Source: Corynebacterium amycolatum (GTDB lineage Bacteria; Actinomycetota; Actinomycetes; Mycobacteriales; Mycobacteriaceae). Taken from it: DNA of 64,000 nt. The stretch spans positions 1,054,001 to 1,118,000 of the forward strand of contig NZ_CP069513.1 in the NCBI RefSeq assembly GCF_016889425.1. The letters run 5' to 3'. The translations under genes were made by a program, and so were the position numbers. Shown piece after piece: positions 13,972-62,377 of this stretch; position 1 is the first letter of the stretch; each line of letters starts with the position of its first letter. The notes beneath the pieces are model-generated. The model was not told the DNA's origin. It did no database searches and saw only the letters and a list, made by a program, of their open reading frames with translations.

Positions 13972-14078
13972 ACGACGAGCGCTTAGCCGTGCAGAGAACG
14001 CAGCGTTTGATCCTAGTCAGTGAAGAATCTTCATACGGCGATATCCCCAGTAACGCTGCGCTGATTAGGGGATTTCAG

Positions 14079-14654
14079 TTAGTGGCGTGGGCTCTGCTCT
14101 CGAACTAGGTCTGCAAATCTGTTGATGTAGTCGCGAACAAAGTCCTCAGTGCTTGACGACGTGAATTCTCCTTGTTCGTCAATGAGTGTTGGCGATTGTC
14201 CCAGGAAGACCTCTGGCTGACCGAGCATCGGCATGTCGAAGTACGACAGCGCGAGTCGCAAGTTCTTCTGAGAGCTATAACCTCCCATACGGCCGACGGA
14301 GTGGCTGATAATTCCCGCGGGCAGGTTCTTCCATGCCACATCACCGTTGGGCTTAGATCCGATGTCAACGGCATTCTTCAGAGCTGCAGGAATTGTGCGG
14401 TTGTTTTCTGGGGTGACAAATAGGATGCCATCGCTGGCTTTAATGGTTTCCCGGAAACTGGTGTATTCCGCGGGAGTCGCAATATCGGACACTGCGGGGT
14501 CGTCGTAGTCGAAGTTGTAGAGAGGGAGGTCACGAATCTCGACGATGTCGACTTTGAAGTCATCGGGGAAGTACGTGGCTGCCTTGAGTGCAATCTTTCG
14601 TGCATAGGAGGCTCGACGCAAGCTTCCTACCAGGATAGAAATCTGTGCAGTCAT
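14079..14654 (-). CDS. NAD(P)H-dependent FMN reductase, third gene of the nrdI-nrdF operon
   Basis: 191 residues, flavodoxin-like fold of the NADPH-dependent FMN reductase / chromate reductase family. The FMN-phosphate loop is ILVGSLRRASYARK near residue 7, and the isoalloxazine-binding loop is VTPENNRTIPAALKNAVD near 83, both well conserved. AAGAAAGGAAC precedes the ATG and only 42 bp separate it from nrdF, so it is probably co-transcribed with nrdI and nrdF. By inference it may supply reduced flavin or reduce NrdI directly; general quinone or flavin reduction is the alternative. Confidence 0.85.
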   Translation of the reverse strand: MTAQISILVGSLRRASYARKIALKAATYFPDDFKVDIVEIRDLPLYNFDYDDPAVSDIATPAEYTSFRETIKASDGILFVTPENNRTIPAALKNAVDIGSKPNGDVAWKNLPAGIISHSVGRMGGYSSQKNLRLALSYFDMPMLGQPEVFLGQSPTLIDEQGEFTSSSTEDFVRDYINRFADLVREQSPRH

Positions 14655-14696: not shown

Positions 14697-15701
14697 TTAG
14701 AAATCCCAGTCTTCATCTGCGGTGTCTTCGGCTTTTCCGATGACATATGCGGAGCCGGAACCGGAGAAAAAGTCGTGGTTTTCATCTGACCCCGGGGTGA
14801 GGGCGGCGAGAATTTCGGGCTTGAAGGCGGTCTCTTCATGGTTAAACCGCTGCGGGTATCCCAAGTTCATGAGCGCTTTGTTGGCGTTGTATCGAATGAA
14901 GTTGGCAACGTCGTCGTAGAGCCCGAGTGGTTGGTATAGGGCTTCGGAGTACCTCAGTTCGAGCTGGTATAGATCATCGAGAAGTTCGAAGACGAAAGCC
15001 TTCATCTGCGTTTGCGTGGCGGTGTCGTAGGTTTCTACGCCTCGCTGGAATTTGTAGCCGGAGTAATAGCCGTGAACAGCTTTGTCACGCAGAATCAGGC
15101 GCACCATGTCGGCGGTATTGGTCAGGATGCCACGTGATGCGAAGTGCAGCGGGAGGTAGAAGCCGGCGTAGAGCGAGAAGGACGAAAGAAGCGTTGCTGC
15201 CGCCTTTCGCTTGAGTGGAACGTCGCCGTAATAGTGTTTGAGCACAGCTTTTGACCGAGCCTGCAGGATGTCATTGGCGACTGCCCATTGGTAGGCAGCG
15301 TCGATGTCAGGGGTATTGGATAGCGTAGAAAATACTGAAGAATAAGACTTTGCATGCACTGCTTGCATGAAAGCGATATTCGTGTAGACGGCCTCTTCAT
15401 GTTCGGTGCGGGCATCTTGAATTTGGGAAATCTCCCCGACAGACGCCTGGACTGTGTCGAGCATGGTCAGTCCGGTGAAGACCTTCATGGTCAGCTCGCG
15501 TTCTAGATCGGTGAGACGTCGCCAGTCTGCAAGGTCATTGGACAGCGGAACTTTTTCGGGCAGCCAAAAATTTGCTGTTAGGCGATTCCACACTTCGAGA
15601 TCTTTGTCATCTTGCACTCGGTTCCAGTTGATCGGCCGAAGGCGGGCAGCTGGGTCCTTTCGAAAAGACGGTGGCGTAGTTGAATAGCTGTAGATGTTCA
15701 A
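14697..15701 (-). CDS. nrdF: Ribonucleotide reductase small subunit NrdF with class Ie (QSK) metal-site substitutions
   Basis: 334 residues from a TTG at 15701, which overlaps the nrdI TGA (TTGA) and follows GGAGGAG by 9 nt. Clearly an R2 protein: [30 protein letters not shown] region and the tail [12 protein letters not shown]...DWDF that binds NrdE. Aligned to class Ib NrdF as I recall it, the metal ligands are D82, then Q113 (usual Glu, in FMQAVH), H116, S173 (usual Glu, in LLSSF), K207 (usual Glu, in RDKAVH) and H210; the radical Tyr is Y120. Codons CAA, TCG and AAA are unambiguous. This QSK set defines class Ie (NrdF2), which works without metal through a DOPA radical. No nrdE or nrdH is adjacent; the large subunit must be encoded elsewhere. 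Confidence 0.95.
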
Positions 15702-16162
15702 GAAGTAGCGCTCCTCCAGAATTTTTCCAGGCCCTCTTTGACGTTTTCCACATCGTGGTCTGTCCCCAGTAGCTCGTAGTGGTATAGCTCCGGAACCTGG
15801 CATTTTGCAGAAATGATGGCTCCGGCTATGCAAAAGTCGGTGCCGAAATTTGTGTTGCCCGAGGTGATGACACCGCGGATGAAACTCCTGTTGGTTTCGT
15901 CGTTGAGAAAAGCGATGACTTGCTTAGGTACCGCGCGGCGCCGACATCCGCCACCATAAGTCGGTGTGATCAGGACAAATGGGCTGCAAACGCGAATCAT
16001 TCCGTCTTTTCGCGGATGTAACGGGATGCGTGCTGCTGGTTGAGCCAGCTTTTGGACGAACCGGTGAGTGTTTTCAGAAGCACTGGAGAAGTACACGATT
16101 CGGGGTGACTCCTCCGGTGGGAGTTCCGTGAAAGTCAGCGGCGTCTTCGATGATGAAGACAC
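15698..16162 (-). CDS. nrdI: NrdI, flavodoxin-like activator of NrdF
   Basis: 154 residues. NrdI is a small FMN protein that, when reduced, makes superoxide to activate class Ib NrdF, and in class Ie systems is needed to hydroxylate the tyrosine to DOPA. Seen here: N-terminal [16 protein letters not shown] (phosphate loop), then ITPTYGGG and [15 protein letters not shown], the FMN-contact loops. The GTG at 16162 is the start because GGAGGT lies 6 nt upstream. It overlaps nrdF by four bases. A 22-bp palindrome sits just upstream of the ribosome binding site. Confidence 0.95.
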
Positions 16163-16174
16163 TCGATTACCTCC

Positions 16175-16196
16175 TATGTTCAATGGATTGAACATA
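16175..16196 (-). promoter_or_regulatory. Palindromic operator of the nrdI-nrdF operon
   Basis: TATGTTCAAT-GG-ATTGAACATA, a perfect 10-bp inverted repeat with a 2-bp centre, directly upstream of the nrdI ribosome binding site. It would block transcription when bound. It does not look like an NrdR box; the regulator is unknown. Confidence 0.7.
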
Positions 16197-16433
16197 AAAT
16201 AGAGGAGTGAATGGGGTGTCAACAAGGCGTTGCCTACATGCGGTTGAAAAGTGCTTAGTCACGCAATTGCGAAGTAAAGCCGCGACTCTGCATTAACGGC
16301 GGAAAAACCCAGCAGCTGATCTTCAAGGCGGGAAAGTGGCGGGGTTGCCGGCCGGGGGGGGGAGAGAGGGAGGAGGCGGTGTCTCTCGGAGGGGGCTCCA
16401 GTCGTGCCCTGGGCAAAAGCACAACAGGGAAAC

Positions 16434-16501
16434 AAAACCGCCGCGCTTTGGAAAGGCCCAGTCGATGAGGAGACTGGTTTTCCAAAGCGCGGCGGTTTTT
16501 C
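16434..16501 (-). terminator. Long hairpin terminator after the fadA-fabG-maoC operon
   Basis: A 21-bp perfect arm (16434-16454) pairs with 16479-16499, and a second short stem (CCAGTC/GACTGG) forms inside the loop. On the minus strand it ends in GCGGCGG then TTTT, 17 bp beyond the maoC stop. The stretch 16197-16433 left of it has no gene; it includes a run of 9-10 G and purine-rich sequence at about 16353-16390. Confidence 0.8.
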
Positions 16502-49568: not shown

Positions 49569-49585
49569 CCACTATTCTGAGACGT

Positions 49586-49832
49586 GATTTACGGTGCACG
49601 GGAATGCCTTGTAAATAGGCAGCGGCCCTCGCCACTGTGATTGGGCGCGATTGCGGCCGTTATCTGCACAGCGGTTATATGCGATAACCGAAAACGCAGG
49701 CAATGGATCCGATGATTGCGGTGCTTCGTCGAAGCCACTCAGGGGGACTCAAACCTTTGGGGAAGGAGGCGAGGCATTAATAGAAGTGTGAAGCTTTCCT
49801 CAGCCCATTAGCCAGGAGACCGACTGTAAATC
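49586..49832 (+). promoter_or_regulatory. Cobalamin (B12) riboswitch controlling cbiMNQO
   Basis: P1 stem GATTTAC (49586-49592) with GTAAATC (49826-49832). Conserved parts in order: GGTGC-ACGGGAA, GGCCCTCGCCACTGTGA, GAAGCCACTC, and the B12 box AGCCAGGAGACCGACTG at 49810-49826. Downstream hairpins CCAATTCGCG/CGCGGATTGG and GCGGTGCT/AGCGCCGC could sequester the ribosome binding site. Expected to lower cobalt importer expression when adenosylcobalamin is plentiful. Confidence 0.93.
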
Positions 49833-49909
49833 ATCCAATTCGCGTCCGCGGATTGGCGGTCGAGCGGTGCTGTCGAGGTGAATAGCGCCGCAGAAAGAAG
49901 ATTTACATC

Positions 49910-52669: not shown

Positions 52670-53595
52670 GCGAGCGGTTTGGTTGGTGAATAGCTCATCG
52701 ATATGTGCAGCTAAACCACGCTAAAAATGAGAGAAACGCCCGCGGGTAGGGCGCAATGCCTATAAAGATAGGCCTAGAAATATAGGCGAAGCTGTCGCAT
52801 TTCTTCGCTTCCATTTCACGTCACACCTGTCCGCGGGCGATCTCCGTGGCCGTGGCACTTTGCAGTGTCTTCGGCGCATCAGGCAGGTATTCGGACTTCC
52901 TGGCGTGACCGACAATAAGGGGATGACGACTGCCGCTTGCTTCGATGCTTACGTGCAGAACCTTATTATCAATTTTCCTACTTTTCGCCGCTTCCCAAGG
53001 TTGAAATAACCTCAGTGCCGTTGGCGAATTTTGTTCCAGATTACCGCTGCGGGACAGTTCCGGAATTGCACCGGATTCCCTCTTGCGTTTGCTGTGCACC
53101 ACCTTCGGACAACCACGTGGAGGACGTAGCATTGAAAGTGGAACTCAACAAAACCTGTTGCATGAATGACAATAGCGCACCAAAGTAAATCAGCGACAGT
53201 GTTTTTCGAAAATGTCCGCATTGGGGGTAAAACGCCGTTCATTACCCTCTGTTATCAACATTCACGCAGTTTATTAGCGGAAAAATAGCTACCCCTGCCT
53301 TGTATCCATTCGGCCGAGGCGGGGCTAATGACAGGATTTATCCTGGTATTTTCTTTACGTACTTGTAGAGAAACCTAGTTGTTTCCTAAGATTGTGTGAC
53401 GGATGCCTTAATGCAGGTGTACCCGTTCGGAGGGTACTATCTACTTTGTACGGTTTACAGCCCCCGAAAGGGTCCGTAGCCGCTGAGCGGTAGTTGGCCA
53501 TTTCGTAGGAGTGTAAGTCGGCGCGAAGTCACAGGCTGATGGTGCCTCTGTGGGTGCCAGTGAAGTAATTTGCCCGTTACGCAGGAGGACGCGAG
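52670..53595. other. 926-bp intergenic region upstream of ramA
   Basis: No convincing gene on either strand. It holds a 28-bp composite palindrome (52759-52786: CCTATA - TAGGCCTA - TATAGG), a GTACCC/GGGTAC hairpin (53419-53437), and C- and G-stretches (CCCCCG at 53462) of the kind reported for RamA/RamB sites. The last 150 nt look like a structured leader. Probably a long regulatory region for ramA. Confidence 0.5.
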
Positions 53596-57151: not shown

Positions 57152-62150
<4,999 letters not shown>

Positions 62151-62258
62151 ACAAGAGAGTGTGAAAAATTAGGGTTTTTGCTCGCGTCTACTGTTCAGTG
62201 TCTGGCATGACACCACCCACCCGAAGTTTTGTGGTGGGGTTGGTTGTTGCCTGGTTTT

Positions 62259-62377
62259 TGTCGGTGGTGTTAGCGGTGGGGTCACGCCCGGTCCCATTCC
62301 GAACCCGGAAGCTAAGTCCACCAGCGCCGATGGTACTGCACTCGGGAGGGTGTGGGAGAGTAGGTCGCCGCCGGCAT
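62259..62377 (+). rRNA. rrf: 5S ribosomal RNA
   Basis: About 119 nt. GTCGGTGGTG pairs with CGCCGCCGGC at the ends (wobble pairs included); GCCCGGTCCCATTCCGAACC and GGGAGAGTAGGTCGCC are 5S blocks. No clear T-run terminator within 50 bp. Confidence 0.95.

Follow-up and report, generated by a model that had tools for sequence, protein, structure and literature searches.

We analysed a window of 64,000 nucleotides, positions 1054001-1118000 of the 2.47-Mb, single-contig genome of Corynebacterium amycolatum. Three genes follow one another on its minus strand: nrdI (15698..16162), encoding a flavodoxin-like activator (PF07972, 4e-45; TIGR00333 over its cut-off); nrdF (14697..15701), encoding a ribonucleotide reductase R2 of 334 aa, with a TTG start that overlaps the nrdI stop as TTGA; and a gene for a ChrR/YieF-like, NADPH-dependent FMN reductase of 191 aa (14079..14654), which starts 42 nt after nrdF and matches PF03358 with 102 bits against a cut-off of 24. 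The preliminary description had confined the operon to nrdI and nrdF. This is right for the nrd genes, but the FMN reductase gene comes after nrdF, and the gene order suggests a three-gene operon, nrdI-nrdF-FMN reductase, that would be co-transcribed.

The likely start of nrdI, judged by eye, is the GTG at 16160-16162 behind an AGGAGG (16170-16175), with the open frame reaching 16225. Between this ribosome site and a promoter-like pair on the minus strand, also recognised by eye (16196..16222; TTGACA at 16217-16222 and TATTTT at 16196-16201, 15-nt spacer), sits the perfect palindrome TGTTCAATCCATTGAACA (16177..16194, no strand assigned). A sequence scan did not list the TTGACA/TATTTT pair. Farther upstream, between the preceding gene and nrdI, RNA folding gave a strong, GC-rich, terminator-like hairpin (16434..16499, no strand assigned; -48.7 kcal/mol), which the scan did not list either; an unusual purine-rich G run (16350-16380) adjoins it. 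Rfam gave no match at the nrdI-nrdF locus. Elsewhere in the window lie a complete rRNA operon (16S, 23S, 5S; 57155-62376) and two cobalamin riboswitches, at 49575-49842 (+) and 52865-53135 (-).

Class of the nrdF product and the second R2 of the genome

The nrdF product matches PF00268 (1.5e-81) as well as the NCBIfam class 1b NrdF models. Its translation reads FMQAVH (Q113, codon 15363..15365), LLSSF (S173, codon 15183..15185) and RDKAVH (K207, codon 15081..15083), all on the minus strand, where the second NrdF of the genome has glutamates in FMESVH, LLESF and RDEAVH. D82, H116, H210 and Y120, the tyrosine expected to become DOPA (codon 15342..15344, minus strand; numbering from the B. vaginale paper), are kept. 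The preliminary description had named the three replacements, their codon coordinates and the four kept residues, and translation bore it out on each. It had also suggested an alignment with class Ib NrdF; in the HMMER alignment with 1kgn (R2F), which we take to be the C. ammoniagenes protein, the glutamates of 1kgn face Q, S and K, and the ligand positions are free of gaps. The best PDB matches of the nrdF product, 8rag/8rah (E 1e-147), have the same Q, S and K, and class Ib-type proteins come next. These entries are QSK structures from B. vaginale, in which D112, DOPA150 and K237 are equivalent to D82, Y120 and K207 here (PMC11846895); the corresponding residues in PMC8902622 are Asp88, Tyr126 and Lys213.

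Across 241 NrdF stretches found by tblastn, among the matches listed, the three ligand sites read QSK in 204, EEE in 37 and a mixture in none. Duplicates were kept in this set and 117 of its loci were picked by a Q...K pattern, so the count is evidence of an all-or-none change and not a frequency; the pattern scan had given at least 120 loci, of which three (L046, L102 and L105) proved not to be NrdF. Sites that change all or none across these stretches argue that the QSK pattern is not due to chance. In a quick tree of 86 NrdFs (no VPK rows; 37 of 83 inner branches open), the 76 QSK rows fall on one side of a branch with an SH-aLRT of 100, and the other 10 rows are EEE. With its three dimetal-site glutamate ligands replaced, the nrdF product lies outside class Ib, while the Q/S/K sites, the kept Tyr, Asp and two His, the tree grouping and the presence of NrdI agree with class Ie QSK. 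The residues, the nearest structure and the tree thus support its assignment as a class Ie R2 of the QSK type, as the preliminary description had it, and it is an ordinary member of the published group, since its nearest solved structure is that of Gardnerella R2eQSK (PMC11846895). QSK had further been ascribed to Mycoplasma, streptococci and Actinobacteria. The Actinomycetota are indeed the reported source of QSK, but Mycoplasma and streptococci have VPK, and the likeness to the Mycoplasma pattern was rejected (PMC11846895). QSK NrdF is reported from 266 genomes, all of Actinomycetota, with the order nrdI-nrdF in 104; the B. vaginale protein contains traces of Mn and Fe only, forms DOPA only with NrdI, and depends on DOPA and reduced NrdI for activity (PMC11846895).

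A search for a second, normal NrdF and for nrdE/nrdH, also suggested beforehand, was productive: nrdI, nrdE, an nrdH-like frame and an EEE nrdF lie together at about 21-28.5 kb of the genome. The genome contains two NrdF, one large-subunit (NrdE) match and two NrdI, and a genome search for NrdD (class III) gave no match. Both NrdFs, QSK and EEE, end in DEDWDF, which fits a shared NrdE. Because an EEE NrdF and a single NrdE accompany it, the nrdF(QSK) product is an accessory second R2. In a hand count of a 201-genome sample of the genus, all 82 Corynebacterium genomes with a verified QSK NrdF have at least two NrdF matches, and the second was EEE in 10 of the 10 in which its sequence was read. 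The 82 of 82 are at odds with the statement that QSK is the sole RNR in 40 Corynebacterium species (PMC11846895).

The palindrome upstream of nrdI and a proposed manganese control

The exact sequence TGTTCAAN4TTGAACA occurs at one place in the genome, 16177-16194 of the window, and was not found at the genome's own EEE nrdF locus (about 21 kb); with up to two mismatches there are 11 places, against 6 for a reversed control. Among the matches listed, GTTC-N8-GAAC stands upstream of nrdI(QSK) in 31 of 127 stretches, spacings of 4-7 and 9-12 giving 0-2; its density is 0.57 per kb in these stretches versus 0.020 per kb in the remainder of those loci, and it is present in 15 of 53 clusters at 90% identity (0.43 expected). 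Counted by distinct NrdFs, again among the matches listed, it precedes 28 of 70 scored nrdI-nrdF(QSK) operons versus 0 of 36 scored nrdI-nrdE-nrdF operons (p 1e-6). Six of seven control palindromes with N8 gave 0/127 and one, GAAC-N8-GTTC, gave 11/127, among the matches listed; by eye, most of the 11 resemble the nrdI coding motif SENT-RF. A chance origin of TGTTCAATCCATTGAACA was rejected by the genome count, the spacing controls and the densities inside and outside the upstream stretches.

Related sites occur before other genes. In this genome, a metal transporter operon that ends in a DtxR-family gene, an arrangement we take to be that of mntABCD-mntR, has a one-base variant, AGTTCAATAGGTTGAAAA, 145 bp upstream. 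The NCBIfam MntR models match the DtxR-family gene (genome 2372628-2373320) only below their cut-offs, so the name mntR rests on position here. In two other genomes (G083 and G063) the full GTTC-N8-GAAC occupies the gap that separates mntH from a divergent gene, about 23 bp ahead of mntH. Three more (G043, G068 and G173, the last being C. silvaticum and the others having the same gene order) have the FMN reductase gene behind sodA, away from nrdIF, and an operator-like site about 99 bp upstream of it, full in the G043/G068 pair and a one-base variant in G173. C. silvaticum, presumably a member of the same complex as C. diphtheriae, combines a QSK NrdF with the site AGTTCAATCCATTGAACT. A looser site, TTC[AG]N6[CT]GAA, was found within 250 bp of 8 of the 16 FMN reductase genes unlinked to nrdF (0.25 expected); three of the 16 have the strict site and eight have none.

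The MntR-regulated genes of C. diphtheriae include nrdI-nrdF2 (DIP1923-1924), mntABCD, sodA and an 'Oxidoreductase', DIP2262, which is numbered next to sodA and moves with nrdI-nrdF2, against sodA; DtxR did not bind upstream of nrdI (PMC13001254). The gene order of relatives suggests that DIP1924 would be of the QSK type and DIP2262 an orthologue of the FMN reductase. In C. amycolatum an operator resembling the ones before Mn-transport genes lies at the nrdI promoter and an mntR gene, recognised by position, is present. We propose that TGTTCAATCCATTGAACA is an MntR operator, to which MntR would bind. The use under metal starvation suggested in the preliminary description gains support from this manganese-regulator-type operator and from the reported control of C. 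diphtheriae nrdI-nrdF2 by MntR (PMC13001254).

Three further sites were noted in this genome, the gene names being judged from sequence. A one-mismatch operator copy lies upstream of an ArsR-like regulator gene (genome 1835474-1835491; L262, about 1501). The perfect palindrome TGTTCACCTAGGTGAACA lies between TrpG/PabA-like and cyclophilin-like genes (genome 643366-643383; L263, about 1501), and TTCAATCGATTGAA directly before an O-acetylhomoserine sulfhydrylase-like gene (genome 1635151-1635164; L012, 5152-5165). As a DtxR iron box the palindrome was rejected: among the matches listed, 126 of 127 QSK upstream stretches have at least five mismatches to the 19-bp DtxR consensus in the form used here. 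A Glycomyces nrdI(QSK) upstream stretch (L155) contains TTAGGCTAGCCTCACCTAA, which is two mismatches from this iron box.

The strict site is absent, among the matches listed, before 42 of the 70 scored nrdIF operons; a local mntR-like gene accompanies 23 of the 42, and the other 19 have neither within their flanks. Such a gene lies within 4.5 kb upstream in 32 of 147 distinct QSK loci (same strand in 30), among the matches listed, and these genes are 45-55% identical to the mntR of this genome. None of the 30 loci among the matches listed that have both a local mntR-like gene and a scored nrdI upstream stretch carries the GTTC site. No mntR-like gene was found near any of the 13 EEE loci of at least 7 kb, many flanks being too short to score. 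CTAC-N8-GTAG was found in 22 of 127 nrdI(QSK) upstream stretches, with no other spacing above one, and in 40 instances inside versus 4 outside those stretches, among the matches listed. This site or its one-base form is present, again among the matches listed, in 8 of 29 distinct loci with a local mntR-like gene, the other 21 having neither site, and in 4 nrdIEF loci near which no such gene was seen. The 4-8-4 layout common to GTTC-N8-GAAC and CTAC-N8-GTAG suggests related regulators with changed half-sites.

The FMN reductase gene beside QSK nrdF

The nearest named solved relatives of the FMN reductase are an FMN reductase and the chromate and YieF reductases. Of 30 genus loci, 24 have its gene no farther than 1.5 kb from nrdF, and 63 of the 201 genus-sample genomes gave a match at E<=1e-55. 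Counted by hand at that same threshold, the gene is present in 58 of the 82 QSK genomes and in 5 of the other 118 (p 7e-25), G122 being excluded for a partial second NrdF. Of the 118, four gave no match to NrdF at 1e-60, three of which are less than 90% complete; 16 were read as EEE and the rest were assigned from match scores.

Merging identical sequences left at least 147 distinct QSK NrdFs. Among the matches listed, the FMN reductase gene is within 2.5 kb in 52 of the 147, was not seen in 80, and was unscorable in 15 with fewer than 900 bases downstream, leaving 132 scorable; L027 was scored as none, and G051 shows the gene 1.7 kb past the same nrdF, outside the locus. The adjacency recurs in at least 13 genera: Corynebacterium, Brevibacterium, Actinotignum (where the reductase gene lies upstream, before nrdF), Leucobacter, Actinomyces, Micrococcus, Gulosibacter, Mycetocola, Brachybacterium, Winkia, Agrococcus, Microbacterium and Auritidibacter. 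It was seen at 0 of 34 scorable EEE loci (33 genes, G180 being read twice; 32 of the 34 from Corynebacterium, many with flanks of 1.5 kb), and the idea that the reductase gene is a neighbour of any nrdF was rejected on this count. On the NrdF tree the adjacency requires 15 changes, and it is present in Actinotignum and Winkia, whose rows join the QSK group at its unresolved base; this distribution would be compatible with an ancient association and repeated loss.

The reductase gene was not found beside the scorable Bifidobacterium, Gardnerella and Streptomyces QSK loci. C. amycolatum SK46 (L018, L085), whose NrdF is 99% identical to the one here, lacks exactly 13993-14654 of the window, with the FMN reductase gene, and retains nrdI-nrdF and the operator. 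The reductase gene is present in G084, G120, G123, G180 and G188, five genomes in which the sole NrdF match is EEE. Given the 80 of 132 QSK loci where adjacency was not seen, the loss in SK46 and these five genomes, the reductase is not required by class Ie as such. In G123 and G188 (L315, L316) it lies near an mntR-like gene, and service to class Ib is possible there. No single conserved downstream neighbour was found for the Corynebacterium QSK loci lacking it. That it replaces NrdI in Actinotignum and Winkia was rejected, as NrdI is encoded elsewhere in each of four genomes.

In Bacillus cereus, FNR2 is an electron donor to NrdI (PMC10294844); the literature searched gave no named donor for class Ie. 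On the basis of co-occurrence, adjacency and the shared operator, we propose the FMN reductase as a candidate electron donor for NrdI, and this step is the least certain of the mechanism set out below.

A proposed backup R2 operon and its relation to known systems

We consider it likely that the locus is a manganese-starvation backup R2e operon, with the FMN reductase supplying reducing power, most probably to NrdI or via FMN. The sequence, gene order, operator and co-occurrence were observed here. Regulation by MntR has been shown by others in a relative; by analogy, when manganese suffices, Mn-MntR would occupy the palindrome at the nrdI promoter and silence the operon. Under manganese shortage the presumably co-transcribed genes would be released, NrdI, QSK NrdF and FMN reductase would be made, and the metal-free R2 would take over. 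DOPA, absence of metal and dependence on NrdI have likewise been shown in relatives: here reduced NrdI and O2 would yield an oxidant that converts Tyr120 to DOPA and then to a DOPA radical, without metal. The R2e would hand the radical to the NrdE that probably also serves the normal manganese NrdF, and ribonucleotide reduction would follow. The FMN reductase would pass NADPH electrons on, most likely to NrdI directly or via free reduced FMN.

It is quite possible, if short of probable, that the operon is a manganese-regulated class Ie operon as described, but that the FMN reductase serves quinone or oxidative-stress defence like ChrR/YieF and merely shares the regulator. Its solved relatives fit such a role, as do its location after sodA in G043, G068 and G173, separate from nrdIF and with an operator-like site of its own, its presence without QSK NrdF in the five EEE-only genomes, near an mntR-like gene in two, its absence from SK46, and the 80 of 132 scorable QSK loci, among the matches listed, beside which it was not found. 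Set against these are the recurrence of the adjacency in at least 13 named genera, upstream in Actinotignum, its presence at the unresolved base of the QSK group, and the 0 of 34 scorable EEE loci, nearly all of Corynebacterium.

The other alternatives touch the regulator and the R2. A palindrome serving another regulator, such as iron DtxR or an ArsR-type sensor, appears unlikely. The copy upstream of the ArsR-like gene (family from sequence only) and other near copies beside no recognised metal gene would fit it, and in a C. diphtheriae dtxR mutant nearly the whole MntR-regulated set is repressed when iron is high (PMC13001254); but the palindrome or close variants stand before the mntABCD-mntR-type operon and mntH, DtxR did not bind upstream of C. 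diphtheriae nrdI (PMC13001254), and the DtxR box came within four mismatches in only 1 of 127 QSK upstream stretches, among the matches listed. Very improbable is an R2 that is inactive or still binds metal, with QSK a sign of decay or of a different cofactor. A normal NrdF in the genome means that loss of function in nrdF(QSK) would be tolerated; yet QSK is all-or-none in the 241 stretches (among the matches listed), the remainder of the protein is intact, the type occurs across Actinomycetota, and the B. vaginale relative is reported to be active and metal-free (PMC11846895).

For the backup operon we put forward, tentatively and with less than even confidence, a wider form: the reductase would be a dedicated electron donor to NrdI or FMN, as a third component of many QSK class Ie systems, and, with nrdI-nrdF, form a manganese-starvation module across Actinomycetota, controlled by the global MntR acting at GTTC-N8-GAAC or by a local MntR-like paralogue, the latter in part through CTAC-N8-GTAG.

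The class Ie QSK NrdF itself belongs to an already described group (PMC11846895); what is new here is its surroundings, the reductase and the operator. The literature searched did not join QSK nrdIF with MntR regulation, the operator or the reductase. When cells use class Ie is stated to be open (PMC8463856), and the operator offers a direct, testable answer for a group of actinobacteria with many host-associated members. The replenishing of reduced NrdI is also stated to be open and may have limited QSK activity assays (PMC11846895); the conserved FMN reductase is a concrete candidate for it.

The closest known system is the R2eQSK of Gardnerella vaginalis/B. vaginale (8RAG, 8RAH), which shares the substitutions, the Tyr, Asp and His residues and an NrdI encoded close by (PMC11846895). 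B. vaginale has nrdHIEF as its sole class I RNR, whereas nrdI-nrdF here accompanies a complete class Ib system; the manganese-type operator and the FMN reductase found here are not mentioned for B. vaginale in the passages of PMC11846895 consulted. Class Ie VPK systems (Mesoplasma florum, Streptococcus pyogenes, Aerococcus urinae) likewise have a DOPA radical, NrdI dependence and lost glutamate ligands, but differ in having V-P-K, the order nrdFIE and a home in Bacillota. Metal control of class Ie is already known for VPK, since Fe and Mn repress the S. pyogenes set (review PMC8463856, crediting Do et al. 2019). Class Ib NrdF (1kgn and the genome's own at 21 kb) resembles nrdF(QSK) in family, C-terminal tail, NrdI partner and probably NrdE; it keeps the three glutamate ligands, and the single FMN reductase gene of this type in the genome lies away from the EEE nrdF. 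C. diphtheriae nrdI-nrdF2 has the same gene order and the MntR regulation that is proposed here, and the passages of PMC13001254 consulted do not term its NrdF2 class Ie. The role proposed for the FMN reductase is filled in B. cereus by FNR2, which hands electrons from NAD(P)H to NrdI but is a thioredoxin-reductase-like FAD enzyme, whereas the reductase here is an FMN_red protein (PMC10294844).
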